Source of the DNA: Thermanaeromonas sp.
Lineage (GTDB): Bacteria > Bacillota > DSM-521 > Neomoorellales > Neomoorellaceae
Assembly (NCBI RefSeq): GCF_021890735.1
Contig: NZ_JAKKUR010000012.1
Location: forward strand, 1-42,728
Length of the DNA: 42,728 nucleotides
Direction of reading: 5' to 3'
Shown: one piece after another, positions 18,891-39,597 of the stretch
How the letters are laid out: each line of letters starts with the position of its first letter
Numbering within the stretch: position 1 is the stretch's first letter
Notes under the pieces: generated by a model
What the model was told of the DNA's origin: nothing
Databases searched by the model: none
What the model saw: the letters and a program-made list of their open reading frames with translations, nothing else
Program-made: the position numbers and the translations under genes

Positions 18891-19940
18891 TTAGAACACC
18901 TGAATCTGCCCCTCCCCCTCGGTTACCTCTCCGATGACACGGGCTGCTTCCACGCCCCGCTCGTGCAACCGCTCAAGCAATTCGGTGGCCTTCTCAGAAG
19001 GTACGGAAATTAAAAGCCCTCCCGAGGTCTGGGGGTCAAAAAGAAGGTCCTGCCAAGCCTCACTTACTCCCGGGGCAAACTTTACCTTCCCCTTGGCGTG
19101 CTCCCGGTTTCGGTAGGCACCGGCCGGTATCAGCCCCATGCCCGCAAAATCTAATACTTGGGGGAACACCGGTATTTCCCGAGTATACAATACCACATCC
19201 ACCCGGCTACCCTGCGCTAGCTCCAAACAATGGCCCAAAAGACCAAAACCGGTTATATCAGTACAGGCATTTGCTCCAACTTCTACCATAACCTCCGCCG
19301 CATCCCTGTTAAGCAAGGCCATCCAGTATCCCATAAGCTTTTCCGTCTCTTTCCCTACCAGTTCTGCCTTAAGAGCCGTCGCCAATATTCCTGTTCCCAA
19401 CGGTTTGGTAAGGATAAGTTTATCCCCCGGGCGGGCACCGCAATTGGTTATCACCCTTTCCGGGTGCACGATCCCGGTTACTGCCAGGCCATATTTGGGT
19501 TCCTCATCGTCTATACTATGCCCACCCACGAGGACAGCGCCGGCCTCCGCAAGTTTGTCTGCACCGCCCTTCAGTATCTCCCCCAAAACGGATAAATCCA
19601 GCTTTGCGCTGGGAAAACAAACGATGTTCATGGCTGTCAAGGGTCGGCCACCCATAGCGTAGATATCGCTTAAAGCATTGGCCGCGGCTACCTGGCCGAA
19701 AAGATAAGGATCGTCCACAATGGGGGTAAAGAAGTCCAGCGTCTGGATCAAGGCCAGTTCAGGAGTTAACCGGTAAACCCCGGCATCATCCAAGCTTTGG
19801 ATCCCCACTAAAAGTTCGGGGTGGTGTACGACCTGGGCGGGCAAAAGATCCAAAATACGGTTAAGGGTCCCCGGACCCATCTTAGCAGCTCAGCCGGAGC
19901 TGCAAGAGAGGCGGGTAAGTTTTATCTCTTCCTTGCCCAA
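18891..19940 (-). CDS. selD: Selenide, water dikinase (selenophosphate synthase), selenoprotein with in-frame UGA
   Basis: Makes selenophosphate from selenide and ATP, the selenium donor for selenocysteine tRNA. The conventional frame from ATG 19880 (MGPGTLNRILDLLPAQ) lacks the catalytic N-terminus. Reading upstream through TGA at 19892-19890 as selenocysteine gives LTRLSCSSGUAAKMGPG, the SelD active-site motif. From TTG 19940, which follows AGAGGG at normal spacing, Sec is residue 17 and Lys is residue 20, the same positions as Cys17 and Lys20 of E. coli SelD. Later motifs include DDAGVYRL, DFFTPIVDDPYLFGQVAAAN and GGHSIDDEEPKYG. The total is 349 codons plus stop. A small GC-rich hairpin lies after the UGA. 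selA, selB and selC are not in the window. Confidence 0.9.
19858..19892 (-). promoter_or_regulatory. Sec UGA codon with candidate bacterial SECIS hairpin in selD
   Basis: UGA at 19892-19890 is followed after 11 nt by GGGTCC (19878-19873), GG, and GGACCC (19870-19865) on the minus strand. A G-rich apical hairpin shortly after the UGA is what SelB recognises in bacteria. The exact fold (4 or 6 bp) is uncertain. Confidence 0.6.
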
Positions 19941-20013: not shown

Positions 20014-20877
20014 TTATCCATGACCGGCCAGAACCCGTGCTAGGTCGACTAATAATTTTCTCTCTCTGCTAGTACACCTTTCTAGGAAGGATAAAAACTC
20101 TTGCTTCTCGTCGTCTCCCAACTCAAGCGGCCGACGGTAACGATTAAGTATCCTGATAAAGGAGGTCAAGCCCCCTATTTCCTCATCCGTCCATGAAGAT
20201 ATAGAATTTACCAACTCCTGCACGGCCGGCCGTTCTAAGCCCGGTGGTAGGGTAGGCTCTTCTTCCTCCATAAGGAAATAGCAGGTGGAGACCCCTAAAG
20301 CCTCAGCCAAGCGGCTTAAAGTGGCCAAAGAAGGCTGTATACGGTCAGTTTCGATCTGGCCGATAAGACTATGAGAGATACCTATCTGGTCGGCCAGTTC
20401 TTTCTGAGTAAGACCCATCTTTTCCCGTAATCGCCTTACCTTGGTGCCCAAAGTCTCACCGCGGTCCTCCTGTAAAAGATAGCTGGTACTGACCTCTAAA
20501 GCCGCAGCCAGTTTCTCCAGTGTCTTCAGGGAGGCTGTGGAGCGCCCCCTTTCAATTTCGCTGATATGAGCTAAGGATACTCCCGAGCGCTGGCTCAGTT
20601 CGTTTAAAGTGAGACCCCGCTGTTCCCGCAAGCGTCGCAGCTTGGCTCCGATGCGTGAAGTCGCCCCCTGAGAAAGCTCGCTATCCTTTTCCTCGAAATA
20701 GCTTATATCCACCCCGAGGATAGAAGCTGCTTCAGCCAAAGTAGCCCGGGAAAGGCGCCGCTTCCCCTCCTCTACTTCCTTCATACAATCCGGGGGGATA
20801 TCCAAGAGATCGGCCAGTGTTTCCAAAGGCATCCCCCGTTCCTCACGTATTTGCCTGAGTCTAGCCCCTACCGACAT
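20014..20877 (-). CDS. Transcriptional regulator with three tandem XRE/Cro HTH domains
   Basis: A 287-aa soluble protein made of three consecutive helix-turn-helix units: residues about 4-60 (ARLRQIREERGMPLETLADL, the most degenerate), 76-133 (AKLRRLREQRGLTLNELSQ, then SGVSLAHISEIERGRSTASL) and 144-200 (TKVRRLREKMGLTQKELADQ, then IGISHSLIGQIETDRIQPSL). A helical tail of about 80 residues follows. Most XRE regulators have one HTH. Three could bind extended or repeated operators without dimerising. The gene overlaps the end of dsrN by 17 bp, so it is the last gene of the sulfite reduction cluster and may regulate it. No ligand domain is recognised. Confidence 0.85.
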   Translation of the reverse strand: MSVGARLRQIREERGMPLETLADLLDIPPDCMKEVEEGKRRLSRATLAEAASILGVDISYFEEKDSELSQGATSRIGAKLRRLREQRGLTLNELSQRSGVSLAHISEIERGRSTASLKTLEKLAAALEVSTSYLLQEDRGETLGTKVRRLREKMGLTQKELADQIGISHSLIGQIETDRIQPSLATLSRLAEALGVSTCYFLMEEEEPTLPPGLERPAVQELVNSISSWTDEEIGGLTSFIRILNRYRRPLELGDDEKQEFLSFLERCTSRERKLLVDLARVLAGHG

Positions 20878-22261
20878 TATGTTCCCCCTTCTGCGAGCCC
20901 GCCACCCAAGCCACTAATCTTTCGGCCCATTCCGGATGGGCAGGAGCAAAAAGATGAGTGTAACCTGCAAGTATATTCCTGTAAAGCAAGCCGTCGAACT
21001 TACCGTCGATTCCCCAACCCCGCACCACTCTGTAGGCAAAGTGAACAGCTTCCTTGTCAAGGTTGATTACACGCGAGTGGTGAAATTCGTGCCCTTTGAC
21101 CCCTGCCTCCTCGTTAAAGAAAGGATTACCGGAACAGGCTTTCAAAAAGGTATATCCATGCCCTTGAGGCTTATTTTCCATCTGTACGTCCAAAGGTAAG
21201 GCCCCCACCATTTCATACCATCGCTCACCATATTTAATACGCCTGGCCAGGTACATAAGTCCTCCACATTCCGCGTAGATAGGCATACCCTCCCTGGCCA
21301 CCCGGCGAATATCCCGTCTTAAAGAGAAGTTTTCTTCCAGGGCCCCTGCGAAAACCTCGGGAAACCCCCCTCCGATATACAGCCCGTCCACAGGTGGCAA
21401 GGCAGCCTCCTTAAAGCTATCGATAAAAACTAGCTCTGCGCCTGCCCGCGCCAAAGCTTCAAGGTTTTCCGGATAATAAAAATGGAAAGCGCGGTCTCGA
21501 AACACTCCCAGACGTACCTTTGCTACAGTAGCAATTTTTCGGTGTATCTTCCCACAAACAATGGGCGGGGCTGTCCGGGCTATATCCAACAAAAGGTCTA
21601 AGTTTACACCAGCCTCTACCGCTCCCCGTGCAGTTTCCAAAGCTACGTGTAACCTTTCGTTTTCAGTTGCAGGAACCAACCCCAGATGCCGGTCGGGTAT
21701 GAGGTATCGGTCGTCTTTAGGTATAGCACCTACCACAGGTATCCCCGTATACTTTTCAATAGCACACCTTAACATCTCTTCATGCCGAGGCCTGGCCACC
21801 CGGTTTAAAAGGATACCTGCTAACCTAACTCGCGGGTCAAAGTTCTTAAAACCTTGGACCAAAGCTGCTGCACTTCTGGTCATCCGGGTAGCATCTAAAA
21901 CCAATACCACCGGCGCCTCCAAAGATAAAGCAATTTCGGCTGTACTACCGGTACCCTCAAGGTCCAACCCGTCAAATAGGCCCATGGCTCCTTCCACTAT
22001 GGCTAGATCTGCTCCCTGACAACCTAAAAGAAAGGAGTTGCGCAACTGATGAGGTGCCATAAAATATAGGTCTAAGTTACGGCAGGGTCTTCCGGAAGCT
22101 AAAGTCAACCAGCTCGGGTCTATATAATCGGGGCCCTTTTTAAAGGGCTGAACTATAAACCCCCTTTTAACTAAAGCAGCAATTAAACCTAAAGTTATAG
22201 TCGTTTTACCGGACCGGCCGTGGGGGGCACCCAAAACAAACCGGGGAATAGTAACGTGCAT
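20861..22261 (-). CDS. dsrN: DsrN, siroheme amidase (cobyrinate a,c-diamide synthase family)
   Basis: Glutamine- and ATP-dependent amidase of the CobB/CbiA family, 466 aa. The N-terminal P-loop-like half (GAPHGRSGKTTITLGLIAAL, FKKGPDYIDPSW, EGAMGLFDG) activates a carboxylate. The C-terminal class-I glutamine amidotransferase half has the nucleophile in YAECGGLMYL and the histidine in GHEFHHSRV. In dsr operons this gene is DsrN, which amidates the siroheme of dissimilatory sulfite reductase. No cobalamin genes lie nearby and it follows dsrB2 by 29 bp, supporting DsrN. A true cobyrinate synthase role cannot be fully excluded. Confidence 0.85.
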   Translation of the reverse strand: MHVTIPRFVLGAPHGRSGKTTITLGLIAALVKRGFIVQPFKKGPDYIDPSWLTLASGRPCRNLDLYFMAPHQLRNSFLLGCQGADLAIVEGAMGLFDGLDLEGTGSTAEIALSLEAPVVLVLDATRMTRSAAALVQGFKNFDPRVRLAGILLNRVARPRHEEMLRCAIEKYTGIPVVGAIPKDDRYLIPDRHLGLVPATENERLHVALETARGAVEAGVNLDLLLDIARTAPPIVCGKIHRKIATVAKVRLGVFRDRAFHFYYPENLEALARAGAELVFIDSFKEAALPPVDGLYIGGGFPEVFAGALEENFSLRRDIRRVAREGMPIYAECGGLMYLARRIKYGERWYEMVGALPLDVQMENKPQGHGYTFLKACSGNPFFNEEAGVKGHEFHHSRVINLDKEAVHFAYRVVRGWGIDGKFDGLLYRNILAGYTHLFAPAHPEWAERLVAWVAGSQKGEHNVGRG

Positions 22262-22290: not shown

Positions 22291-23328
22291 CTAAAATTTA
22301 AGGTAGAGGTTTTGCCTAAAACGAACGTCAGAGCTACCTCCTACGGCTTGAAGGAAGCGACCCCATCCCATTCGCTCAACAAAAGCTCCTAGCCTTTCTC
22401 CGGCCTGCGCCTTTTCTATCCAGACTTCCAAAATGCAACTTATTTTTTCCTTGATTTCCTTATATTCCGGGGGCTTTACAGGTAAAAACGGAAAAACTAC
22501 CCCCGCCAAGGAAGGTGCCGGCCCTCCCCGGCCCCCGACCAAGATGGCCGCGCCCCGTTCCCCCTTTAACTTTATCCCGGCGGCCGCTGCCTGCATACAC
22601 GAGCCGCAGCGCACACAGCGAGCCAAATTTATAGTTACGGAAGTTCCCTTAGGAGTAACTTTAGGCCGGATGGCTTTGGTAGGGCACCAGGAGACGAGCA
22701 ACCCTATATCTTCGTTAGCTTCTACCAAAGCTTCATCGTCTACCTCGGGAAAACCCTGGTACACCCCGATGATGCCGATATCAGCCTCCACTCCGCCTCC
22801 GCACCCGTTGGGGCAACCGCTTATGGAAATTTTAAGCCACGCGGGAAGGCCAAAATCCTGAAAATACCGCCAAAGATGATCTCCCAAAGCTTTAGCCAGG
22901 CTAGGAGCATCCAGGGCTGCATTCTGGCAGTGGACAAAGGAGGTACAACATTTTATCTGGTGGGCTGTCTTACCTGTCCCACCCACCAAAAATCCGGCCT
23001 GGTGTATCTCCTCAAGAAGCATATCCAGCTTGGCAGGGTCTACTCCTACCAGCTCAAAGGATTGGCGGGAGGTACGCCGGCCAACCAACGCGTATTTACG
23101 GATCCAGCTGGCCAGCAGGCGCAAAGAAGGGGCGGCCAGAAGCCCGTTGGGCGGAAGAAGGATTCTTACACTCAAAAGAATGCTCCCGTCTCGGCCTACA
23201 TGTCTGAGAACTCCGGGTTGAACCGTCTCATGCCAGATCCACTTACCCGCCATCTCTTTAAGATATGAAGGTAATTCACGCCGGAAATCGGGCATTATCC
23301 CGGCCGGCATTTCATCCTGTACAGCCAT
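22291..23328 (-). CDS. DsrB-like subunit of a second, divergent sulfite reductase
   Basis: A 345-aa DsrB paralogue with siroheme/[4Fe-4S] and ferredoxin domains. Alignment by eye with the canonical DsrB (27395-28453) shows GWIHC matched by SFVHC (Cys134), but the canonical CC-x3-C becomes GC-x3-C (Gly171, Cys172, Cys176). A new Cys128 appears so that the motif is C-x5-C...C-x3-C, the pattern of DsrA. Four ligands therefore remain, but rearranged. The ferredoxin cysteines are C215, C238, C241 and C244. ATG 23328 follows AAAGGGGG, and the gene overlaps the end of dsrA2 by 17 bp, implying coupled translation of a heteromer. Whether it reduces sulfite, another oxyanion, or acts in siroheme biology is unknown. 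Confidence 0.85.
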   Translation of the reverse strand: MAVQDEMPAGIMPDFRRELPSYLKEMAGKWIWHETVQPGVLRHVGRDGSILLSVRILLPPNGLLAAPSLRLLASWIRKYALVGRRTSRQSFELVGVDPAKLDMLLEEIHQAGFLVGGTGKTAHQIKCCTSFVHCQNAALDAPSLAKALGDHLWRYFQDFGLPAWLKISISGCPNGCGGGVEADIGIIGVYQGFPEVDDEALVEANEDIGLLVSWCPTKAIRPKVTPKGTSVTINLARCVRCGSCMQAAAAGIKLKGERGAAILVGGRGGPAPSLAGVVFPFLPVKPPEYKEIKEKISCILEVWIEKAQAGERLGAFVERMGWGRFLQAVGGSSDVRFRQNLYLKF

Positions 23329-24502
23329 AGAAGGCCCCCTTTATTTCCACCACGGTACCTTTACAAGGGCGAAAAACATTCTTCCTCGGCATCTCTACTA
23401 CCTGGGGCTCCACACTAAGCCCCAACTCGCGCAGTATCCTGCTAGGACCTACGCGGCTTATAAAGTCCCCCACCCTTTCCTTGGGTTTGGCCTGGTCCGC
23501 CCAAAACTCCAAAAAGGCGCCGAAAAGATCGCCCAACGCATCATAATCTTCCGGACCCCTGATAGGGAAAAAGGGTACCATCACATAACCCACCATGGGG
23601 CCCTTCGGACCCCGGTGCCCGTATTTTCCACCCGCTACCCAAGCCACCCCGCGCTCTTTACCGGGGCGGATAGCCGAACATAAGTTTATACAAGTCATGC
23701 AGCGAACACAAGCCTCTGGGTCTACCTTAAGCTTAGAAGACTTACCTTCCACTACAAGGGCCCCTTCTGGGCAGGCCTCTATAAGACCCTGCCAGTCCCC
23801 TCCGCTTTTTACCCACTCCTCCAGCAAAAGTTCATCGATAACGGGCAGGTCCCGGTAAACGCCAATAAAAGAGTGGTCTTTTTGCATCATCGCCCTAATG
23901 CAATCATTGGGGCAGCCCGCCACCCCGCTCTTGCATTTCTGAGGAAAACCCGGATATTGCTGGTCATCTATGAAACGCTGGCCCAAGTAGGTAGCCAGCC
24001 CCGGAGCATCCACCAGGGCCAGATCACACCGCGCAGGCCCGCAACAGGAGGTGATGCAACGTAGGTCATCTCCCGTGGAGCCTACATCGTAACCTAAAGC
24101 ATTAAGCTCGCGCACCAAAGGTACTATATTTTCTCGCGTAGTGTAAATCTCTAGGGTCCCGCCAGTCGTAAAATGTACCAAGCCCTGCCCGTACCGTTCG
24201 GCCAGGTCAGCCAAGGCTTCCAAGGTTTCTGCGCTCATCCACCCGCCTGCCGGACCTAAAATGCGGATGAAGGGAGACTCCGCCCAGACCTCCGGGTAGC
24301 GGCTGAGCCTTAAGGAAGTCCCTGAGGGAAGCTCTGGTATTGAAAGATACCCGCCCGGCCCGAAGGCAGAAGCCCCTTCCTTAAGGCCGGCCTCGTATAT
24401 CTCCAGGGGATAACGGCTTGAAGCCAGTTCCTTTACATGGCTGGGATACGGGCCGTTGAGGAGCCGGGAACAAAAAGATAATTCTTTTTCTTTTTGCTTC
24501 AT
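23312..24502 (-). CDS. DsrA-like subunit of a second, divergent sulfite reductase
   Basis: A 396-aa DsrA paralogue. The siroheme-cluster motifs are kept: TSCCGPARC (C153-x5-C159) and GCPNDC (C197-x3-C201). The inserted ferredoxin has C244, C265, C268 and C271 with an additional C275. Compared with the first DsrA the N-terminus is shorter and the sequence diverges widely outside the motifs, and a C-terminal tail carries two extra cysteines (C380 and C394). I choose ATG 24502 (AAGGAAGGG 5-7 nt upstream) rather than the GTG at 24523, which overlaps the preceding stop. It is transcribed after the dsrC-like gene and before dsrB2. Confidence 0.87.
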   Translation of the reverse strand: MKQKEKELSFCSRLLNGPYPSHVKELASSRYPLEIYEAGLKEGASAFGPGGYLSIPELPSGTSLRLSRYPEVWAESPFIRILGPAGGWMSAETLEALADLAERYGQGLVHFTTGGTLEIYTTRENIVPLVRELNALGYDVGSTGDDLRCITSCCGPARCDLALVDAPGLATYLGQRFIDDQQYPGFPQKCKSGVAGCPNDCIRAMMQKDHSFIGVYRDLPVIDELLLEEWVKSGGDWQGLIEACPEGALVVEGKSSKLKVDPEACVRCMTCINLCSAIRPGKERGVAWVAGGKYGHRGPKGPMVGYVMVPFFPIRGPEDYDALGDLFGAFLEFWADQAKPKERVGDFISRVGPSRILRELGLSVEPQVVEMPRKNVFRPCKGTVVEIKGAFYGCTG

Positions 24503-24516
24503 TCCAGCCCTTCCTT

Positions 24517-24771
24517 TTAGCACTCTTTGGGCATGGGCAGCCCTGTTATCTTGCTTATTTCTCCAACGGGATTCCCCGGGAATAACTTATAAATTTTCTT
24601 CTTTTCCCACCCGCTAAGCTTCATAAGGGTACGCAGGGTACAAATGGTCTTGTGCTTCCGGTAATAATCGTAACTTAACTCTAGAAGATACCAGTGTTCC
24701 TCCCCCAAATCTATACCCCGCTCCCTGGCCCTATCCATAATGGCTTCCCTTTCCGCCTGCGAAAGGCCCAT
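24517..24771 (-). CDS. DsrC/TusE-like protein with only the terminal cysteine
   Basis: An 84-aa relative of DsrC. The family helix-turn core and the C-terminal arm are recognisable (KKIYKLFPGNP, then SKITGLPMPKEC), and the last residue Cys84 equals the penultimate CysA of DsrC. CysB is replaced by Ser73 (DsrC: GACKIAGLPKPTGC; here GEISKITGLPMPKEC), so the intramolecular trisulfide/disulfide cycle of DsrC cannot form. The N-terminal beta hairpin of DsrC is also missing. One more cysteine, C44, is internal. Proteins keeping only CysA are known as TusE or DsrC-like sulfur relays or regulators. It begins the second set of genes, 15 bp before dsrA2, so it is the natural partner of DsrAB2. Confidence 0.82.
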   Translation of the reverse strand: MGLSQAEREAIMDRARERGIDLGEEHWYLLELSYDYYRKHKTICTLRTLMKLSGWEKKKIYKLFPGNPVGEISKITGLPMPKEC

Positions 24772-24826
24772 AGAAGAACCCCCGGGTCTAATTTTAACAT
24801 ATCAACAAAATAAACGAAATAAATGA

Positions 24827-24861
24827 TTGAGGCTAGCCGTGGTTAACCCAGCTAGCCTCAA
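24827..24861 (-). terminator. 11-bp hairpin between dsrC and the second dsr set
   Basis: TTGAGGCTAGC (on the minus strand 24861-24851) and its complement at 24837-24827 enclose a 13-nt loop, followed by ATCATTTATTTC. The perfect stem with a loose U-rich tail could partly terminate transcription after dsrC, reducing expression of the paralogous genes. Confidence 0.6.
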
Positions 24862-24870
24862 TTTGGTAGT

Positions 24871-25188
24871 TTACACACACCCTGTAGGCTTGGGCAGACC
24901 GGCGATCTTACAGGCCCCTTTGGCCGGGCCGCTAGGAAATAGATCGTAGATCTGCTTAAGGCTAAAGCCTGTCTCTTTGCATAATTTCCGTATCATGGGA
25001 GCAATACCAAATTGCTGGTAATACTGCCGCAGGTAGTTGATGACCTTCCAGTGATCTTCCGTAAGCTCCGTTACTCCTTCCGTCTCGGCTAGGGCTTTAG
25101 CTACCTCCTCGTTCCATTTTTCCGGGTCCTGGATGAACCCGTCCTCATCCACTTCAATTTCAATACCCGCCAACACCATTTTCGGCAT
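24871..25188 (-). CDS. dsrC: DsrC, sulfur-carrier co-substrate of dissimilatory sulfite reductase
   Basis: A 105-aa DsrC with both redox cysteines: CysB = C93 in KGACKIAG and CysA = C104, penultimate, in PKPTGCV. DsrAB loads sulfur from sulfite onto DsrC as a trisulfide, which the DsrMK membrane complex then reduces with quinol electrons. The N-terminal strand region (MVLAGIEIEVDEDGFIQDPE) and helices (VINYLRQYYQQFGIAPMIRK) are complete. It lies directly after dsrK, 50 bp downstream, which suits its role as the DsrK substrate. Confidence 0.95.
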   Translation of the reverse strand: MPKMVLAGIEIEVDEDGFIQDPEKWNEEVAKALAETEGVTELTEDHWKVINYLRQYYQQFGIAPMIRKLCKETGFSLKQIYDLFPSGPAKGACKIAGLPKPTGCV

Positions 25189-25238: not shown

Positions 25239-26615
25239 CTACCTCACCAAAGCGTTAGCCACCAGCTCGCTTATCCCCGCAAACCTAAGGGGAAGTTTGT
25301 AATAGTTTATAATCTCCCGGAACTGGCCCTTACAATTAGAGCAGGCCAAGGCCACTATACTGGCTCCCGTAGCTTTAAGCTGTTCGGCTTTAATTTTACC
25401 ATAAGTCTCCATACGGAATTTAAGAAAATCACCTTTAGTCATTATGGCAAATCCGCTACCGCCCCCGCAGCAGTAGCTCATCTCCCGGTTGGGCTCCATT
25501 TCCCGGAAATCCTTACAGCAGGCTTTAAGGATACGGCGGGGCTCCTCATAAAGCCCGCCTAATCGCCCCAGCTTACACGAGTCATGATAGGTTACGGGCT
25601 CCGGATTCTTCTCGGGGTCTACTTTTATTCTACCCTCCCGGATCCACTCGTCTATAAGTTCCAGAATGCTTTTCACTTCAAAAGGTCTTTCTGAGGGAGG
25701 GATAAGCCTTAACATAAGATATTTAAAAGCCTCAAAGGCATGCCCGCATTCGCCTACCACCAGCGTTTTTACCCCGAGATTAACAATGGTTTTAATTTGC
25801 GCCTTCAGTACCTCGGTAAACTCTATATCGCTGAAAAATACTCCGTAATTCACCGCATCATTGATCCCCGTGTCTGGCGAATTAAGGGTCCAGTCTACTC
25901 CCGCCGCGTGGAATATTTCCGCTGCTCCCATCACTGTTTCGGCAAAGGCCAAGTAATCCCCTGCGTTATGCATGACGAGGTATTCGGCACCCTTTTTATC
26001 TACAGGTATTTTTATCTTATATCCTCTCTGGTCTTCAATTTCCTCCTCTAAAAACTCGATAATATCCAAAAATGCGGCCGTCGGAGTCCCCGTCGCGTTT
26101 CCCATCTCCAGTTGCTTGCGGGTACCCTTTTCCTTTAACTCATCGGGTGCTATACCTATGGCGTCAAAAATTTTTCTGGCTTCCCTTACAATGAGCCCGT
26201 TATCTATGGCTAACGGGCAGACATAGGCGCACCGGCGGCAAACAGTACAGCGGTATATGCTCTCGGCCAAGGCGTCTAACTTATCCTCCGTCAGGTCTTC
26301 CGCCCCTACCAACCCGGGGAAAAGCCTTCCCGGCCAGGTAAAATACCGCCGGTAAACCTTACGGATCAATTCAGATCTCACAGCAGGGTGATATATCTCT
26401 TTGCGCCCGCTGGATATATATACCGGGCATACCTCAGCACAAGTGCCGCATTTCATACAAACATCCAGGGAGAGCACATAGGGCAGCCAAAAGGTCCAAT
26501 TACTACGCCGGTCCAGCGACTTCTTCATCGCATCCAGGAAATGGGGGACGCGGACTTCATTGCTCCTTAGCATTTCATCCGAAAGGGCGCGGTAATCATC
26601 AAAAACTTTCCTCAA
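25239..26615 (-). CDS. dsrK: DsrK, HdrD-like iron-sulfur subunit of the DsrMK membrane complex
   Basis: A 458-aa cytoplasmic subunit. Two ferredoxin clusters (C53/C56/C59/C63 and C123/C126/C129/C133) precede the heterodisulfide-reductase type cysteine-rich repeats: GECGHAFEAF and HDSCKLGRLGG, then SYCCGGGSGF and ACSNCKGQF, the ligands of the special noncubane-type [4Fe-4S] site. It reduces DsrC trisulfide using electrons from DsrM heme. The start overlaps the dsrM stop by ATGA, so the two are translationally coupled. DsrJ, DsrO and DsrP are absent, as is usual for the minimal DsrMK of Gram-positive sulfite reducers. Confidence 0.93.
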   Translation of the reverse strand: MRKVFDDYRALSDEMLRSNEVRVPHFLDAMKKSLDRRSNWTFWLPYVLSLDVCMKCGTCAEVCPVYISSGRKEIYHPAVRSELIRKVYRRYFTWPGRLFPGLVGAEDLTEDKLDALAESIYRCTVCRRCAYVCPLAIDNGLIVREARKIFDAIGIAPDELKEKGTRKQLEMGNATGTPTAAFLDIIEFLEEEIEDQRGYKIKIPVDKKGAEYLVMHNAGDYLAFAETVMGAAEIFHAAGVDWTLNSPDTGINDAVNYGVFFSDIEFTEVLKAQIKTIVNLGVKTLVVGECGHAFEAFKYLMLRLIPPSERPFEVKSILELIDEWIREGRIKVDPEKNPEPVTYHDSCKLGRLGGLYEEPRRILKACCKDFREMEPNREMSYCCGGGSGFAIMTKGDFLKFRMETYGKIKAEQLKATGASIVALACSNCKGQFREIINYYKLPLRFAGISELVANALVR

Positions 26616-27283
26616 TCCGCCTCACCCCACTTTACCCGGTGGTAGCTAAAATACTTAGCTGCAAAGTGGAACATACGGCCAAAAGGTAAATATATCAAAA
26701 ATAGTTCTCCAAGTAAAATTTCCCAAAGGAACAAGGGGTTGGTAGGGACTCTTGGCGAAAATGTTAATATACCTAGTAAGTATTCCCTGACCTCTGCCGT
26801 ACTGCCAAGAAAGCCGGTTATAAGACCTCCAAATGAAAGAAGAAATATAAGGAGGAGATTTAGATATTCCACAGGAGAAGACAGTTGCCTGAGGTCTCCA
26901 CCTGTCCTCCTGAATATGAGCCACAAGGAACCCGCCCCGGCCAAAATACCTCCCAAAGTCCCCAACATACCTGCGAAGCCGGCCGAAAGCAGACCGGTCA
27001 CAAGTACCAGTAACCATAAGGCCAGAAGGTATATCCCCCAATGCATCAAAAGGGAGGGAAGCCATAGCCTGCGGTTATAGGTATACAGACTGCGCAGGGT
27101 GAGGACTTCAACAACCATTTCCTCTAGTTTGCCTGCCGTAGTACGGGGATAGGGAAAAAGCTCCCAGTGTAGATGTTTAGGCGCCCGGGCCCAAAACGAA
27201 ATTTTATAAAGGGAGCCCGCCAAGCAAACCCCAACTGCAGCGTAGGGTAACACTACTCCTATAACATAACCTATCCCCTCCAT
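26612..27283 (-). CDS. dsrM: DsrM, cytochrome b (NarI-like) subunit of the DsrMK complex
   Basis: A 223-aa membrane protein with about five helices. Histidines suited to heme b are in helix-proximal positions (HLHWELFPYPR, LLMHWGIYLLALW and FGRMFHFAAKYFSYH). It oxidises menaquinol and passes electrons to DsrK. It is shorter than DsrM of DsrMKJOP complexes, in keeping with the minimal form. ATG 27283 has GGAGGG upstream. A strong hairpin lies in the 111-bp gap between dsrB and this gene. Confidence 0.88.
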   Translation of the reverse strand: MEGIGYVIGVVLPYAAVGVCLAGSLYKISFWARAPKHLHWELFPYPRTTAGKLEEMVVEVLTLRSLYTYNRRLWLPSLLMHWGIYLLALWLLVLVTGLLSAGFAGMLGTLGGILAGAGSLWLIFRRTGGDLRQLSSPVEYLNLLLIFLLSFGGLITGFLGSTAEVREYLLGILTFSPRVPTNPLFLWEILLGELFLIYLPFGRMFHFAAKYFSYHRVKWGEAD

Positions 27284-27394: not shown

Positions 27395-28453
27395 CTACCA
27401 CCGGAACTGGGTGGTGGTTCTAAAGGTAGGTACGCTAAAGATGAAGTCATCGATATGCTTATCAGTGAAGGGAATATCTGCCAGCTTGAAGAAGGTTTCC
27501 CAACCTATCCTCTCGATCCACTCGCCCATTCTTTCACCCTTGCGGGCATGGGTAGCCCAAACCTCCACCAGCTTCTTAACCGCCTCCACTACTTCCGGCC
27601 AGCGCGGTGGATTGTTGGGCAGGTAAGGAATGGCCAACCGGGAGAACATAGGTGCCGTGCGGGCATTGGAAACCTTTCCACCCACCCAGATGGAGACACC
27701 GTCGTTCTCGGGATCCATAATCTGCATAGCCGGCGACATGGTGAAGCAGTTCCCGCAGTACATGCAACGCTCCTCGTTAACCTCTACACTCTTAAGTTTA
27801 GGATTAGGCCGGATGGCGCCCGTGGGGCAACTGGCCACAACGGTGGGGATCTCGCTCACCTTGGCCAAAAGTTCATGATCCACCCGCGGGGGTGTGCGGT
27901 GCACACCCAAGATAGCTATATCTGAGCAGTGGACGGCCCCGCACATGTTAAGACAGCACGCTAGGGAAATGCGCAGTTTGGCCGGTAGCTTCTCCTCCAC
28001 GAAGTATTCGTACAGCTCATCCATTACCGCTTTTACTATACCTGAGGCATCGGTAGCCGGGGTATGACAGTGGATCCAGCCCTGGGTGTGTACCATGTTA
28101 CTCAAGCAATTACCGGTGCCGCCTACCGGCCAACCTTTGGCCTTTACTTCCTGGATGAGCGGTTCGATGTTTTCTTTCTTGGTCACCAGAAATTCAATAT
28201 TATGCCTGCTCGTAAACCGTACGTACCCATCGCAGTATTTATCGGCTAGATCGCACACTTCCCGAATGAAATCGGTGCTCACCAGGCGTGGCGAACCCAC
28301 ACGTATGCTGTATATCTCCTCCCCACTCTCCGCCACATGCTTCAGTACACCGGGTCGCAAGATCTCATGGTACTTCCAACGACCATAATTCCTTTTTATG
28401 ACCGGCGGGAGCATCTCCATATAGTGGGGAGGTCCGAAATCGGTCCTAGGCAT
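27395..28453 (-). CDS. dsrB: Dissimilatory sulfite reductase, beta subunit
   Basis: A 352-aa catalytic beta subunit. It has the canonical DsrB ligand pattern: C129 in [17 protein letters not shown] and the CC-x3-C of LACCLNMCG (C166, C167, C171) for the siroheme-coupled [4Fe-4S] cluster, and ferredoxin ligands C209, C230, C233 and C236. With DsrA it reduces sulfite in the cytoplasm and hands sulfur to DsrC. ATG 28453 overlaps the dsrA end by 8 bp. Domain order and length are standard for reductive-type DsrB. Confidence 0.96.
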
Positions 28454-29639
28454 TTCTCTTCACCTCCTCAGGCCACCAGAAAACATAGGGGTTGGCACGC
28501 GGACGGAATACCATCTGCGGTACCGGAGGCAGTCCTACTGCCTTAAGGAACGTCCGCATCCCAACGCGATAAATTAGTTCGCCTATCCTCTCCCGGTTCT
28601 TACCGTTTTCATCCCACCAATCAAAGATTCTCCTAAGAAGGTCTTTGAGCTCCGTATAAGGAGGTTTAAGCTCCATAAAAGGCACGATAACCCATCCCAG
28701 GAAGGCCGACTTAAGTATGGTGGCCTTTCCACCGACCAGTAAGGTGGCACCCCTTTGTTCTCCGGGACGCAAAGCCTTGGGCATCTTGTTGATACAGTGC
28801 ATACAACGGACGCAGTCTTCCGCCTTAAGTTTAAGCTCCTTCTTTTCACCGTCCCAGGCCAAGGCTCCGGTAGGACACTTTTCCACCACTTCTTCTTGGA
28901 TATTCAATCCGGCATCCGCGTAGTCAGCCACCGCGGCCTGATCTATCTGGATCGCGCCCTTCCAAGTACCAATGATGGCAAAATCAGCCCTGGCTATAGA
29001 TGCTACACAATCGTTAGCGCAACCGGAAACTTTTATTTTAAACTTGTAGGGCCACTGCGGGCGGTGGAGGAAATCCTGGAATTCTAGGGTTAAACTGTGG
29101 CATACATCCAAAGTATCTATGCAGGAGAATTCGCACCTGGCCGGTCCCACGCATGCACTCGGCGTACGCAGGCCGCCACCGGACCCCCCCAGATCGAAGC
29201 CGGCGTCACTCAGCTCATCAAAGCAAGGTTGGAGGTTTCCTGTGGTAGTGCCGAGCAGTATAATATCTCCTGTGGAGCCGTGGAAATTAGTCAACCCGCT
29301 ACCATATTTATCCCAGATATCACACAGCTTACGGAGAGCCTCAGTGGTGTAAAACCAACCGCTGGGCTGGTTTATACGCATGGTATGAAATTCCTTAACA
29401 TGAGGGAACTCCTCGGGTTTATCGGAATAACGGCCAATTACACCGCCACCGTAACCCTTGACGCCGACAATCCCACCATGCTTCCAGTGACCGATTTTCT
29501 CAGCGTATGATAAATCTAGCTGGCGCAAAAGGTCGCCTGCCGATGGATGTTTTTCCGCTGCCCGCTTTATCTCCTTTACGAAGCTGGGCCACGGACCCTT
29601 TTCCAGTTCGTCCACACGTGGTGTTTGGGCATTAGCCAT
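28446..29639 (-). CDS. dsrA: Dissimilatory sulfite reductase, alpha subunit
   Basis: A 397-aa alpha subunit. It has siroheme-cluster motifs SACVGPARC (C163-x5-C169) and GCANDC (C207-x3-C211), with an inserted ferredoxin domain C255, C276, C279 and C282. ATG 29639 follows GGAGGTG. It forms the alpha2beta2 enzyme with DsrB, reducing sulfite with six electrons, partly via the DsrC trisulfide. It follows a small ferredoxin gene and a 15-codon frame. The reductive type is inferred from the presence of DsrMK, a canonical DsrC and dsrN, and the absence of dsrEFH or dsrL in the window. Confidence 0.96.
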
Positions 29640-29760: not shown

Positions 29761-29949
29761 CTAGTATTCCTGTACCGTTACAGCTCCAGTAGGACACACA
29801 GAAGTACAACTTTCACATCCCAGGCACTCCACTGGATCTCCTGTGACTTCCGCTTTACCATCCGCCATAGAAAGGATCTGAGCCGGGCAGGCCGCAGCAC
29901 ACTCGCCGCACCCGCTGCATTTTTCTTGGTCTACATTGACTAGAAACAT
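29761..29949 (-). CDS. 2[4Fe-4S] ferredoxin
   Basis: A 62-aa ferredoxin with two cluster motifs (CSGCGECAAACP and CLGCESCTSVCP). ATG 29949 is used because GAGGTGG lies upstream; TTG 29952 is adjacent. It is the first gene after the sigma-H-like promoter and precedes dsrA, so it is a probable electron carrier to DsrAB or between oxalate oxidoreductase and sulfite reduction (the latter inferred). Confidence 0.9.
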   Translation of the reverse strand: MFLVNVDQEKCSGCGECAAACPAQILSMADGKAEVTGDPVECLGCESCTSVCPTGAVTVQEY

Positions 29950-29983
29950 CAAAGTTCCACCTCTTTTGCTCCGTTTCGTTTTC

Positions 29984-30308: not shown

Positions 30309-31773
30309 TTATGCCGCCGAAGGCGGAGTTATTCCGTGGAAGAACAACCAGGAAATTATAAGCCCTATCCAAATAATGAACCCGAACAGACATACAAGGT
30401 ACACTAAAGCTAGCCGTCCCATGCCCTCTTCCCTAAGCTTCTTAAAGTTGGACATCAAACCGATAGTAAAGAAGGTCAGGGCAAAGAAAATCCCCCGGAA
30501 AGTATCCGCTTGACCTACTCCAGCACTGAGTAGCTTTAGAGTATCTTTACTCGCACTAGAGCCAATAAGCAGCACCAGTAGGAAAAGGGCTGCATAACCT
30601 AGCACGAATTTGGGGAAGCGCACCCAGATGTCCGCAGCAGAAACCTTTTCCCCTTCGCGCCCCTCTATCTTCCAGGCCCAGATAATGGCCAGAATGAAAG
30701 CCCATATAGCGATAAAGATATCGATAAACACCTTTACTGTAGTGGTGGCCATGAGCATCCAGCCTTCTTGCCACTTGATCCCTAAAGCCGTAGCTGCTTT
30801 AGCCCGGATTAAAGCATCTACCATCGCTCCGCTGGCAGCCGCAGCACCATCAGTCTTAACCGCCAGCCCCATCCAGGCCCCCGCCACCATGGGCTCCTTA
30901 TAAAGCCAGGCCTGCGCCACAAAGGGGAGTATCAAAAGTTCCACTACTGCAAAGATAATGACTAGCGACGATACTATCACAGGTACTATCGGGCGGGCCT
31001 TGATGGCCGCACCGGTGGCAATAGCCGCTGAAACACCGCAGATGGAGATACCCGAGGCCAATGGTGCTGCCCATTCCGGAGTAAACTTGAAGTACCTACG
31101 GGCGATGAAATACACCAAAGGCCAATAAATAAGATAGGCTTCGATAATGGCGCATAAGCCTCGGAATACTACTTGAGCGGCTAAACCTGTAGATTGAAGG
31201 GCATACATACCCACTTTGGCGCCCAAGATGACAATGGCCGTCTTTACAAACCATTCCGGTTTAGTGGCCTCCTGAAGATACCTGGCCAACCCGGGCCAGA
31301 AGTTACCAATAAGGAGACCTATGATGAGGGCTATGATAAATCCGGCCTCTCCTGTAAGCCTTAAGGACCAATTAATATTGTATTTGGCATATTGGTCGGG
31401 GGTAACTGCGATGAAGGCGTAATGCCCTAGCATCCAGCAAAAATAGGTGATCCAAAAGATAATAGTAAATCCAGCGATAAAGCGGCCTACATTACCACCC
31501 ATGGCAGCGACGCCGATGCTCAATAACACTGTAATGAAAACATAGGTCAAAATGAGGGAGACAATCCCAGGTAACCCCTTATACACATCTGAGACTGGCG
31601 ATAAGGCCTTGGCTATATCTAGCCATATATTAGTTTTTACTACCCAGCCAATGATATCGAGGCCCGCCACTTTAAGCAAGCCCAAAAGAAAGATAAAACC
31701 ACCTATCCATACTGCCCACCAGTCTTCGGTTTTAAGTAACGGTGATCTGGCCCCCTTGGCCTCCCTGCGTCAT
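30309..31773 (-). CDS. YeiH-family putative sulfur-oxyanion transporter, apparent frameshift near the start
   Basis: A polytopic membrane protein of the YeiH/putative sulfate exporter family; typical segments are AIVILGAKVGMYALQSTG, GISICGVSAAIATGAAIKA and AVKTDGAAAASGAMVDALIRA. Members are linked by context to export or import of sulfur oxyanions, though biochemical proof is thin. The open frame alone would start at TTG 31685 inside the first helix. A perfect start (ATG 31773 after AAGGAGGAGGGGG) is one base out of frame. Removing one G from the G5 run (C5 at 31751-31755) joins them, giving MTQGGQGARSPLLKTEDWW, then AVWIGGFIFLLG, a sensible N-terminus. The 458 codons downstream are intact. 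It lies next to dsr and shares its promoter type. Confidence 0.75.
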
Positions 31774-35772: not shown

Positions 35773-36168
35773 CTATAAAATCTTCAAGGGCTCCTCCCTA
35801 ACGTCACCATCTACAATCCAAAAAGCCCGTAGTACAGGTTGTAATGGATCTCGAAGGGAAAGGATAAAGTAGAGGGCTTCGGGATAAAAAGCGAGACGTA
35901 CATCAGTAGGTGATGGGTAGGCTTCGGTAACAGGGTGGGAATGAAATATTCCCATTATTTCCCAACCCTTACTTTCCACTTCCCGGAATATGCGGAAAAG
36001 TTCTTGGGGATCTATAGTATACCGGGTAGGACTATGTTCAGCATTTGTCGCCGGGTAAAAGGCTAAAATCTCTCCCCCTGTGCCGGCCAGTATACCGCAG
36101 GCCTCATTAGGTAGGTTATTTTGGGCATGGGCGATCATTTCTTCTACTAATTCCCGCCGCAGTTTCAT
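35773..36168 (-). CDS. JAMM/MPN+ metalloprotease of the cysteine-carrier pathway (Mec-like)
   Basis: A 131-aa zinc protease with the complete JAMM motif: Glu22 (PNEACGIL), H76-S-H78-P and Ser86/Asp89 (HSHP-x6-S-x2-D). In Mycobacterium the homologue Mec releases newly formed cysteine from the C-terminus of the carrier CysO by cutting after Gly-Gly. Here it is the last gene of the operon and its start overlaps the cysteine synthase stop by ATGA. It probably releases cysteine and may also cut the ThiS-ThiF fusion after its internal Gly-Gly (inference). Confidence 0.87.
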
Positions 36169-37103
36169 GTTCCATACCTCCTGGGCTCAGGAACATCCAT
36201 TAAACTTAGGTAGCGTTCTCCAGTGTCTGGAAAAACCGTAACCACTGTTTTACCTGGACCTAGCTCACGGGCCACCTTTATAGCTGCATAAGCTGCGGCA
36301 CCGGAAGAAAAGCCAGCCAGTATCCCTTCTTCACGGGCCAGCCTCCGAGCCATATCGTAGGCCTCCTCGTCTCCTACGGTGATCACCCGGTCAATAATGC
36401 CTCTGTTCAACACCCCAGGAATAAAGCCAGCGCCCAGCCCTTGTATGCGGGTAATTCCTGGCCGCCCGCCCGACAAGACTGGAGACTTTGCAGGTTCAAC
36501 AGCTATAATTTGGACGCCGGGCACCCTCTCCTTTAGTACTTCACCTACCCCTGTCAGGGTACCCCCTGTTCCCACCCCAGCAACAAAAGCATCTACCTTG
36601 TTACCTACCACATCCAAGATTTCCTGGGCTGTGGTAAGCCGGTGGATGGCGGGGTTGGCGGGGTTAGTGAATTGACGCAACAAATAATAACCCTTAGTGC
36701 GCGCCAGTTCTTCCGCCGCGAAAACAGCGCCAGACATTCCTTCTATGGCCGGTGTAAGGATCACCTCTGCCCCCAGCCAGGTAAAAAGTTTCCGCCTCTC
36801 CAGGGACATGTTTTCAGGCATAGTTAACACCAGCCGATATCCTTTGGCCGCTGCTACTACTGCCAACCCTATCCCTGTGTTACCGCTAGTAGCCTCCACC
36901 AGAGTATCCCCAGGCCGCAGCAACCCCCTTCTTTCGGCATCTTCTACCATGGCTAAGGCGATCCGGTCTTTAACACTGCCACCGGGGTTAAAGGCCTCAA
37001 TCTTGGCCAGAATTTGTGCCGCCTCTGGCCCGGGGAGCCTGTTTAGGCGCACCAGGGGGGTCTGGCCTATGGTTTCCAAGATGCTTAAGGCTACTTTGCC
37101 CAC
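36165..37103 (-). CDS. Cysteine synthase (CysK/CysM family)
   Basis: A 312-aa PLP enzyme. The cofactor lysine is K45 in [11 protein letters not shown], the phosphate loop is [10 protein letters not shown], and the second glycine-rich loop is [15 protein letters not shown]. Standard members replace the acetyl or phosphate group of O-activated serine with sulfide. Beside a ThiS-type carrier and JAMM protease, it may instead use carrier thiocarboxylate as sulfur donor, as CysM of Mycobacterium does. The C-terminus is short ([10 protein letters not shown]), close to bacterial CysK length. GTG 37103 has AAAGGGGG upstream. Confidence 0.9.
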
Positions 37104-37200
37104 CCAAAATCCCCCTTTAGTACAACTTCACCCCCGGGAGAATATAGCCAGATACTCTCTAAGGGAGCCAGTTTGCGAGGCACAAAGGGTTATGGAGATC

Positions 37201-38337
37201 TCACATAGACGCTTGGGAAAAGGCTTCGGGAAGATTCCTCGCTCCCTCCTCCCCTGCCCCGGGCCTCCCCAAGCAGTACTCTTCTCCATAATCCCTTAAC
37301 TCCTTTATTTCCGGATTATCCCCGCAAGCGGGACAGGAAGGGTTGCGGGCTATACGGAACTGCCGGAAAGTCATGGTAAGGGCATCCACGAAAAGAAGTT
37401 TTCCAGCCAGGGAAGAACCCAAGTCAAGAAGGATTTTTAAAGCTTCCGTAGCTTGAATAACCCCTATGAGCCCGGGAAGAACCCCTAAAACCCCTGCTTC
37501 AGCGCAGGAAGGGACACTTCCAGGCGGTGGCGGGGCAGGATAAAGGCAACGGTAACACCCTTGGCCGGGTAAAAATACCGTAACCTGGCCTTCAAAACGA
37601 AAGATACTCCCATCCACGAGGGGCTTCTGCAAAAGAACACAGGCGTCGCTTAGTAGGTAGCGGGTGGAGAAATTATCACAACCGTTTATCACTAAATCAT
37701 AGGGCTGAATAACCTCTAAAGCGTTGGCTGCACTTAAAGCGAAAGGATAGGTTACAACCTTCACCTCTGGATTTATATCGAACAAGGCCTCGCGGGCGGA
37801 ATCCACCTTCAGACGACCCACATCGTGGCCATGATGTAGTATCTGCCGCTGTAAGTTGGAAAGGTCTACCCGGTCAAAATCCACCAGCCCCAGAGTCCCC
37901 ACGCCGGCAGCCGCCAGGTATAAAGCTGCGGGCGATCCTAACCCGCCCGCACCGACGATAAGCACCTTGGAATTCAATAACTTTTCCTGCCCTTTTCCAC
38001 CCACCTCAGGAAGAAGGATATGTCGGCTATAACGTTCAACTTGTTCAGGGGTTAAGTTGCTACCTCCAGCCATAGCAGGGATTATAGCTACTTGGTCCCC
38101 TTCCTTTAAGGGAGTAGATTTCCCCTGTAGACTGCGAATCTCTTCCTCGTTCACGAACACGTTTAGGTGTTCGTGTATATCTCCTTGAGGATTAAATATC
38201 CTTTCTTGGAGTTCCGGAAAAAGCTCAATAAGTTTGGTCAGTACTTCGTCCACTGTATGCGCATCCACCACTACGTTAGCTCGGCCACCGGTTAAGCTCC
38301 GATAAGGAGTAGGAATATATACGGAAACAGAAGGCAT
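37201..38337 (-). CDS. ThiS/MoaD-like sulfur carrier fused to ThiF/MoeB-type adenylyltransferase
   Basis: A 378-aa fusion. Residues 1-92 are a ubiquitin-like carrier (PSVSVYIPTPYRSLTGGRAN and on to IIPAMAGG, with Gly91-Gly92). The chain continues without a break into an E1-like domain (LTPEQVERYSRHILLPEVGG, ATP loop GAGGLGSPA at 129-137, DFDRVDLSNLQRQ, thiol-rich SCAEAGVLG, zinc cysteines CYRC and CPAC). A carrier must end in free Gly-Gly to be adenylated and thiolated, so the fusion needs cleavage, probably by the neighbouring JAMM protease. The C-terminal 40 residues are poorly conserved. ATG 38337 follows GGAGGGG. Confidence 0.88.
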   Translation of the reverse strand: MPSVSVYIPTPYRSLTGGRANVVVDAHTVDEVLTKLIELFPELQERIFNPQGDIHEHLNVFVNEEEIRSLQGKSTPLKEGDQVAIIPAMAGGSNLTPEQVERYSRHILLPEVGGKGQEKLLNSKVLIVGAGGLGSPAALYLAAAGVGTLGLVDFDRVDLSNLQRQILHHGHDVGRLKVDSAREALFDINPEVKVVTYPFALSAANALEVIQPYDLVINGCDNFSTRYLLSDACVLLQKPLVDGSIFRFEGQVTVFLPGQGCYRCLYPAPPPPGSVPSCAEAGVLGVLPGLIGVIQATEALKILLDLGSSLAGKLLFVDALTMTFRQFRIARNPSCPACGDNPEIKELRDYGEEYCLGRPGAGEEGARNLPEAFSQASM

Positions 38338-38367
38338 AATTCCACCCCTCCTTAATTACTTTGGGGT

Positions 38368-38607
38368 TCACTCACCCACCTTTTCTATAAGCAACCGGAA
38401 AGCCCCGCCCAGGTTCTCCACAGATAAAACGCGATGCCCTTCCTCCTTTACGCTACGAGGAATGTTGCGAACCGGATCTCCGGGATCCAGTAAAAGTTCC
38501 AGCACCTGCCCGGCCTCCAAATCTTCTAAGGCCAGTTTAGTACGTACAAAATTCATAGGACAGGGGGTTCCCCGCAGGTCTAAAGAAATACTCGGTGCAG
38601 GAAGCAT
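38368..38607 (-). CDS. TusA-like sulfur carrier protein
   Basis: A 79-aa protein of the TusA/SirA family with the conserved N-terminal DLRGTPCPMNFVRTKLAL and active Cys16. TusA proteins carry persulfide sulfur to partner enzymes. It lies between the sulfite reductase and the ThiS-ThiF fusion, so it may deliver sulfur for thiocarboxylate formation. The start ATG 38607 has AGGTGA upstream. Confidence 0.9.
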   Translation of the reverse strand: MLPAPSISLDLRGTPCPMNFVRTKLALEDLEAGQVLELLLDPGDPVRNIPRSVKEEGHRVLSVENLGGAFRLLIEKVGE

Positions 38608-38649
38608 CTCTTCTCACCTGCCTAAAATGAAATTTCCATTAATGGCATT

Positions 38650-39597
38650 TTAATCTTCATAAGCAGGGAAGGTAGCTGCTACCCCGCGGTAAAAGACACT
38701 CTGCCACCTTGGCTTTTCTAGGTCAACGTGGGAGAGCAGATACTGTCCAATGACTGGTTTAAGGGCGCGGCGTAAAATATTGATCCCCACCCGGTCTATA
38801 GTATCGCCTATCCTCTCTCCAGGCTGACCATGCTCCCGATACCAATGGATTACCGTTTCGATCACCGGGAATATTAATTCATCAGGAACGAGGGAGGCTA
38901 TAGGATAGGCCACGTGGGGGTGTCGGCCGTGCTTTCCACCCACATACACAGCATGACCACACCTACCGACTGTAAGGGCATCCGTAGGGCAGCTATGAAG
39001 ACAGTCGCCACAACCTAAGCAACGACCAGGATCCCGCCAAGGCAGATTATCCTTTAGATAAAGGGCTCCCTCCTGACACACCTCTACACATAATCCGCAG
39101 CCATTGCATTTATTGGGGTCTAGGGCCGGCTCTACTTCTCCTTGAAAACCTAGATCGTTTTCCCGGGACCGCATACAATCAGTTGGACAGCCGGAGAAAG
39201 AAATCTTAAACTTGTGGGGGAGATCCCAGCCGAAGTAACGCTCGTTTACTTCTTGGGCCAATCTTTGGGTATCTACCAGGCCATTGGGGTTATATTCGCA
39301 TCCACCACAGGCAGTGGGTACCCGCACCCGTTTTCCACAGGAAGCCAACCTTTGTCCAGCAGCCGCCAGTTCCCGAGTAACAGCTTCTACATCTTCTAGT
39401 TTCACATATAAAATCTCAGGCGACATGCGCACGGAAAGATGCACTATCCCTCGGCCGTACTTATCGGCCACATCAGCTATGGCCCGTAGCCTTTGAGAAG
39501 TAAGTCGTCCGCCAGGAGCCATACACCGGATGGTCACCATCCTTTTTTGCCGCTGGGGGATAAGCCCGCCAGCCTTGAGTTCTTCAGGAGACCTCAT
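38650..39597 (-). CDS. Siroheme sulfite/nitrite reductase-like protein with two ferredoxin clusters
   Basis: A 315-aa single-chain relative of DsrA/DsrB and AsrC. The siroheme-cluster half has TACGGCEYNPNG (C97 and C100) and GCPTDC (C137-x3-C141). The first pair is spaced C-x2-C rather than the usual C-x5-C; C87 is another candidate. Two [4Fe-4S] motifs follow (C164/C167/C170/C174 and C193/C196/C199/C203). It is the first gene of the cysteine operon behind a strong sigma-A-like promoter, so an assimilatory role supplying sulfide is likely. Nitrite as a substrate is not excluded. Confidence 0.85.
   Translation of the reverse strand: MRSPEELKAGGLIPQRQKRMVTIRCMAPGGRLTSQRLRAIADVADKYGRGIVHLSVRMSPEILYVKLEDVEAVTRELAAAGQRLASCGKRVRVPTACGGCEYNPNGLVDTQRLAQEVNERYFGWDLPHKFKISFSGCPTDCMRSRENDLGFQGEVEPALDPNKCNGCGLCVEVCQEGALYLKDNLPWRDPGRCLGCGDCLHSCPTDALTVGRCGHAVYVGGKHGRHPHVAYPIASLVPDELIFPVIETVIHWYREHGQPGERIGDTIDRVGINILRRALKPVIGQYLLSHVDLEKPRWQSVFYRGVAATFPAYED

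Follow-up and report, generated by a model that had tools for sequence, protein, structure and literature searches.

The closest described relatives of the genes analysed here are the second-copy dsrAB of Moorella, which, in the passages that treat them, form the earliest branch of the DsrAB tree and lie near dsrC and dsrN (PMC10504309, PMC7174415), branching before the archaeal reductive type (PMC10504309). This second copy serves to root DsrAB trees, and its active site is undescribed in those passages. Jespersen and colleagues named two features that separate assimilatory sulfite reductases (SiR) and Fsr from DsrAB: the ligand pattern of the cluster, CX5CXnCX3C against CXnCCX3C, and Arg388 in Fsr against Thr in DsrA. 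Fsr was argued to perform six-electron chemistry and DsrAB two-electron chemistry, and in sulfite reductases the siroheme and sulfite are anchored by one subunit, while the cluster is bound by the partner (PMC10229431).

A 42,728-nt stretch from the thermophilic bacterium Thermanaeromonas sp. (NZ_JAKKUR010000012.1, GCF_021890735.1; the window, in which all coordinates are given unless another locus is named) carries such a second module, dsrC2-dsrA2-dsrB2-dsrN-xre, from 24771 to 20014 on the minus strand, downstream of a canonical dsrAB-MK-C run. The second dsrA and dsrB pair and the accompanying DsrC-like gene, predicted by an initial annotation, were confirmed at their positions, all on the minus strand. 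With a probability of about 0.5, the sequences suggest that the module is a long-kept, early-branching DsrAB-type sulfite reductase with its own sulfur carrier and an assimilatory-type site, working beside canonical DsrAB.

Cluster ligands, putative catalytic site and carrier

The cluster ligands were assessed in a joint alignment of DsrB2 and DsrA2 orthologs with canonical DsrAB, among them the Archaeoglobus and Desulfovibrio proteins available in the PDB, and with Fsr. The siroheme-cluster ligand set of DsrB2 was Cys128, Cys134, Cys172 and Cys176, with Gly171 preceding Cys172. The resulting CX5C...CX3C pattern matches DsrA, Fsr and the assimilatory reductases, and it was present in all 16 DsrB2 orthologs and in none of the 24 canonical DsrB; it is therefore neither chance nor a sequencing or assembly error. 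The Cys128 column holds Thr in all 24 canonical DsrB (Thr145 in Dv DsrB) and the Gly171 column holds the first Cys of the canonical CC (Dv Cys188), while the canonical motif CXnCCX3C was absent from all 16 DsrB2 orthologs. Both the exchanged residues and the DsrA-type pattern claimed in the initial annotation are thus real. Neither a Cys128 far from the siroheme nor a loss of siroheme-binding residues was found: in both DsrA and Fsr the residue aligned with Cys128 is a known ligand of the cluster, and the sulfite pocket of DsrA2 was complete. DsrA2 itself carries the CX5C...CX3C siroheme-cluster site, and the ferredoxin-domain cysteines were intact in both subunits. Both scored below the cut-off of the corresponding canonical model (DsrA2, 251 bits on TIGR02064, cut-off 393; DsrB2, 248 bits on TIGR02066, cut-off 341.5).

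Equivalents of the sulfite-binding residues of MjFsr (Arg355, Arg423, Lys460 and Lys462) were all four present in every DsrA2. DsrB2 had only the equivalents of Arg355 and Lys462, the other two positions being unconserved, as in canonical DsrB. This asymmetry is the same as that of canonical DsrAB, so that each heterodimer keeps a catalytic site and a structural site. Because DsrA2 holds all four residues and the pair shares this asymmetry, the centre that joins the cluster of DsrB2 to the siroheme pocket of DsrA2, which is where the ligand pattern differs, is a plausible catalytic site. Altered catalysis, as first suggested from the ligand pattern, may follow.

The ratio of non-synonymous to synonymous substitution rates (dN/dS), calculated against a congener (G017), was ∼0.08 each for dsrA2, dsrB2 and dsrC2, indicating purifying selection. 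Constraint on the canonical genes was stronger (dsrA 0.022, dsrB 0.005). Stop codons were absent from the module genes, and with the dN/dS values this ruled out pseudogenes. Two details of DsrA2 in the initial annotation did not hold. The extra C-terminal cysteines (CKGTVVEIKGAFYGCTG) occur in this genome only and are absent from G017 and the other orthologs, and a functional role for them was rejected for lack of conservation. In place of the supposedly shorter N-terminus, an alignment with canonical DsrA shows a short deletion inside the protein, close to its N-terminal end; at 396 amino acids, DsrA2 is as long overall as the canonical DsrA of this genome (397).

DsrC2 matched PF04358 (56.7 bits, cut-off 24.9) and fell under the cut-off of TIGR03342. 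Its predicted structure had a mean pLDDT of 90, and the best Foldseek matches were all members of the DsrC family (probability 1.0). The protein is without the N-terminal part of DsrC and keeps the GLPxPxxC C-terminal arm, which in DsrC reaches the siroheme. At the CysA position Ser was found in 14 of 15 orthologs (all 13 from Moorellales and that of G053); the DsrC2 of G094 (L090, 9476-9856) was the only one found with Cys there (CQLTGLPKPEEC). CysB is the terminal residue. Cys44 was also kept in all 15 orthologs, and the label of a single-Cys protein was dropped. As far as can be read from its residues, DsrC2 cannot form the usual CysA-CysB trisulfide of DsrC, and we infer that a persulfide on the C-terminal Cys would be its simplest chemistry. 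TusE also has CysB alone but acts with TusBCD. The genome contained only two DsrC-family genes, dsrC and dsrC2, and a search of it for the DsrE family gave one strong match, which lies next to another SiR on C113, together with two weak matches and no clear TusBCD set. A part in tRNA thiolation is therefore unlikely, and the Dsr-locked context likewise speaks against a TusE role.

Ancestry and company of the module

Phylogenetic trees placed DsrA2 as sister to DsrA (support 100/98) and DsrB2 as sister to DsrB (91/45, or 99/92 with stricter columns), each branching outside its canonical counterpart. A joint clade of DsrB2 and DsrA2 was rejected (p-AU 9e-7 in the approximately unbiased test), and the module subunits did not group with Fsr or AsrC. 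On these trees, the origin of DsrA2 and DsrB2 by a recent duplication of the canonical genes next to them was rejected. The trait columns were kept in the alignment and would pull DsrB2 away from DsrB, so that the grouping of DsrB2 with DsrB is conservative if anything. Since CX5C is common to Fsr, the AsrC-like protein of locus L053, DsrA, DsrA2 and DsrB2, one change on the stem of canonical DsrB suffices, and CX5C is ancestral whether DsrB2 is placed with DsrB or with DsrA. Most simply, DsrB2 would have retained the ancestral state and the CC of canonical DsrB would be derived. Neither the transfer of ligands between subunits nor the return to an ancestral form proposed in the initial annotation gained support: DsrB2 stands beside canonical DsrB, and both routes need more steps.

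Of the 22 Moorellales genomes, 14 contained orthologs of the module, as did two (G053 and G094) of three genomes from a different, small class within the phylum. Orthologs were found in none of 83 genomes in the class of G024, and among 399 genomes sampled evenly across the phylum there were no carriers beyond Moorellales and these two. A search of plasmids gave AsrC and NirB matches only. An alignment-based contig scan found five named loci, and those of Moorella mulderi, M. stamsii and M. sulfitireducens (L054-L056) hold orthologs with E values of 3e-129 to 8e-134. The module is therefore the published Moorella second copy, in line with the initial annotation, which had pointed to second dsrAB copies in Moorella-type Firmicutes.

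Among intact loci of Moorellales the order dsrC-dsrC2-dsrA2-dsrB2-dsrN-xre was fixed, and in most cases it was preceded by dsrMK and followed by selD; in G053 and G094 the block dsrA2-dsrB2-dsrN-xre-dsrC2 was kept. The selenophosphate synthase gene selD, at 18891-19880 in the window, comes after the module in almost every Moorellales locus. The position of the canonical pair varies. In Moorella it belongs to a Desulfovibrio-like lineage and lies behind selD or farther off, and in the present genus, G018 and G001 it belongs to a different lineage and lies upstream of dsrK. Of the two pairs, it is thus the second copy that stays constant in Moorellales, and the canonical one that varies. The two lineages at two places (L038-L052) imply replacement or separate acquisition of canonical dsrAB.

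Canonical DsrB was detected in 15 of the 16 carriers, the exception (G008) being 84% complete, and in none of the eight Moorellales genomes without DsrB2, a count whose weight is limited by shared ancestry. Because the canonical lineage has been swapped and yet the company has been kept, these data argue for a functional tie between the module and the canonical pair.

Proposed function and alternatives

The genome is 99.6% complete. A search of it did not find ATP sulfurylase, and AprA gave no match above the cut-off. The source organism is therefore unlikely to be a sulfate reducer, and its sulfite would not be derived from sulfate. Thiosulfate reduction has been described for both Thermanaeromonas and Moorella. 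The carrier M. sulfitireducens uses H2 with sulfite as acceptor (PMC11328732). The likeliest substrate of DsrA2B2 would be sulfite, either external or freed from thiosulfate.

In the proposed mechanism, an A2B2 heterotetramer would reduce this sulfite at the DsrB2-cluster/DsrA2-siroheme centre, with the cluster coordinated as in assimilatory SiR and Fsr. The sulfur would either leave as sulfide or form a persulfide on the C-terminal Cys of DsrC2, which would hand it on to the DsrC with two cysteines and to the membrane complex DsrMK. Given that the carriers also have canonical DsrAB, the module would most likely work alongside it, in low-sulfite scavenging, detoxification or sulfur relay, and not in its place.

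Several observations weigh against this interpretation. The column holding Thr in DsrA and Arg in assimilatory enzymes (Fsr Arg388) contained Thr, Ser, Ala or Asn in DsrA2 and not Arg (the alignment is ambiguous by one residue beside an invariant Gly-Gly, and the shifted reading gives Gly), so the assimilatory resemblance of DsrA2B2 is incomplete. The AlphaFold model of the DsrB2 monomer, whose nearest folds were DsrB, DsrA and Fsr in that order, was poor in the cluster loops. The grouping of DsrB2 with canonical DsrB was only moderately supported over its grouping with DsrA (p-AU 0.26 and 0.08), and the sample was without DsrB from deep archaeal branches, on which the derived status of CC hinges. 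M. sulfitireducens also has canonical DsrAB, so its growth on sulfite does not single out DsrA2B2, and M. carbonis reportedly uses neither sulfite nor thiosulfate. The activity, substrate and electron count of DsrA2B2 are inferred from sequence.

It is unlikely that DsrA2B2 is a second ordinary respiratory DsrAB, which would load the two-cysteine DsrC with a trisulfide for reduction by DsrMK, the altered ligands and DsrC2 mattering little. Most Moorella-type genomes do have dsrMK-dsrC-dsrC2-dsrA2B2-dsrN in one run with no other dsrAB inside it, and all four sulfite residues are retained in DsrA2; however, structures tie CXnCCX3C to DsrAB and CX5CXnCX3C to assimilatory and Fsr chemistry (PMC10229431), the DsrC2 that travels with the pair is without CysA, and a canonical pair is kept in every well-covered carrier. 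The complete Arg/Arg/Lys/Lys set also makes it unlikely that DsrA2B2C2 acts on another substrate, whether thiosulfate or trithionate (the usual acceptors of the family), nitrite or organosulfonates. Thiosulfate reduction in both genera and the sulfate activation genes not found in the genome would suit that proposal, and Fsr, itself a CX5C siroheme reductase, takes nitrite well, but with the same cluster pattern it does not take thiosulfate (PMC10229431).

Least probable of the explanations considered, and very unlikely, is a helper without turnover, serving canonical DsrAB as a platform for loading siroheme or DsrC, or as a sulfite sensor partnered with the triple-HTH regulator. The strict accompaniment of carriers by canonical DsrAB, the constant linkage to dsrN and the XRE regulator, and dN/dS values ∼4 to 17 times those of canonical dsrA and dsrB are compatible with this, but the catalytic site has kept every residue that serves cofactor or substrate. 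The detection of both copies in an M. thermoacetica proteome, as reported in PMC10504309, fits an enzyme at least equally.

A broader reading of the preferred sulfite reductase, and an unlikely one, is that the module preserves a pre-canonical Dsr stage, in which a SiR/Fsr-like cluster would carry out six-electron reduction to sulfide and a one-cysteine DsrC arm would carry a persulfide, not a trisulfide. On this view, CXnCCX3C in DsrB and CysA in DsrC would have arisen later and opened the way to the two-electron, DsrC-trisulfide, energy-conserving pathway. Sulfate respiration rests on the DsrC trisulfide pathway. If the assimilatory-type cluster and the carrier without CysA are as proposed, one cultivable genus would offer both chemistries side by side, and two DsrB residues (the Cys128/Gly171 pattern) and one carrier cysteine would bear on the choice between six-electron reduction and the DsrC trisulfide. 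An old question on sulfite reductase evolution becomes testable with this module. This lineage will be misjudged by dsrB surveys and by models that rely on the canonical motif.

Locus layout and comparison with known systems

The sulfite-reduction genes lie on the minus strand in the order ferredoxin-dsrA-dsrB-dsrM-dsrK-dsrC-dsrC2-dsrA2-dsrB2-dsrN-triple-HTH regulator (Table 1). Of the dsrAB-MK-C-N operon initially annotated, the dsrAB-MK-C run stands, and dsrN lies behind the second pair, to which it is linked in all relatives. Hairpins comparable to that between dsrC and dsrC2, differing in sequence, were present in L038, L041 and L048; this element may be a processing or attenuation point and dsrC may perhaps be set above the downstream genes. 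Scans for promoters and terminators gave no signal above shuffles. The PF03601 protein, whose place next to the operon agrees with the proposed sulfite reductase, adjoins dsrMK in many Moorella-type loci, and YeiH gives Salmonella sulfite resistance (PMC12880088).

Table 1. Features of the dsr locus, with positions in the window.
Feature	Position	Strand	Evidence or remark
Membrane protein of PF03601, distantly related to YeiH, putative exporter of sulfite or sulfate	30309-31685	minus	
Ferredoxin, small, 2x[4Fe-4S]	29761-29952	minus	directly upstream of canonical dsrA
dsrA, canonical	28446-29639	minus	581 bits, NCBIfam equivalog; 397 aa
dsrB, canonical	27395-28453	minus	536 bits, NCBIfam equivalog; motif CXnCCX3C
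dsrM, short form, dsrJOP not adjoining	26612-27283	minus	
dsrK, HdrD-like, CCG domain	25239-26615	minus	
dsrC, canonical, both C-terminal cysteines present (CKIAGLPKPTGCV)	24871-25188	minus	
RNA hairpin, stable, GC-rich, between dsrC and dsrC2	24817-24862	minus	z -4.3
dsrC2, DsrC-like carrier, 84 aa	24517-24771	minus	PF04358 match, predicted fold
dsrA2, 396 aa	23312-24502	minus	ATG start with Shine-Dalgarno; alternative start GTG 24523
dsrB2, 345 aa	22291-23328	minus	TIGR02066 match under cut-off; ligand alignment
dsrN, siroheme amidation, CobB/CfbB family	20861-22261	minus	linked to dsrA2B2 at every orthologous locus
Regulator, three HTH_3/XRE domains	20014-20877	minus	constant module member

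Elsewhere in the window, a run at 35773-39597 on the minus strand encodes a JAB peptidase, a cysteine synthase (PALP), a fusion to ThiF/MoeB of a ThiS domain that has an internal Gly-Gly, and a siroheme reductase resembling Fsr and AsrC. The run looks like a unit for carrier-protein cysteine synthesis, in which the JAB enzyme would release the Gly-Gly end. The first cluster motif of the reductase (38650-39597; TACGGCEYNPNG) is C-x2-C, with Asn in place of the second Cys of CX5C.

In comparison with known systems, the module consists of direct orthologs of the Moorella second copy (55-86% identity in DsrB2) with dsrC and dsrN adjoining, whereas this genome differs in having canonical dsrAB of another lineage ahead of dsrMK. 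With the canonical DsrAB of Archaeoglobus and Desulfovibrio it shares two subunits, an inserted ferredoxin domain, asymmetric siroheme sites and the sulfite residues in DsrA; it differs in the CX5C...CX3C of DsrB2 with Gly for the first Cys, in its sub-cut-off scores on TIGR02064 and TIGR02066, and in that DsrB2 is 37% identical to the canonical DsrB of the same genome. Like Fsr and assimilatory SiR it has CX5CXnCX3C at the cluster of the putative catalytic site and the same four sulfite residues, but it is formed from two different subunits, has neither an F420 oxidase domain nor an equivalent of Arg388, and groups with DsrA and DsrB. DsrC2 has the fold and GLPxPxxC arm of DsrC and TusE, and differs in its Ser at CysA, its CysB as last residue, the missing N-terminal part and the extra Cys44; canonical DsrC has both CysA and CysB, whereas DsrC2 is without CysA in 14 of 15 cases. 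The gene pair itself has been published, and the passages on it in PMC10504309 and PMC7174415 mention neither the DsrB cluster motif nor DsrC2. As far as these passages show, what is new in the module is the assimilatory-type cluster ligands of its DsrB, a DsrC2 without CysA, and its constant accompaniment by canonical pairs that are interchangeable.

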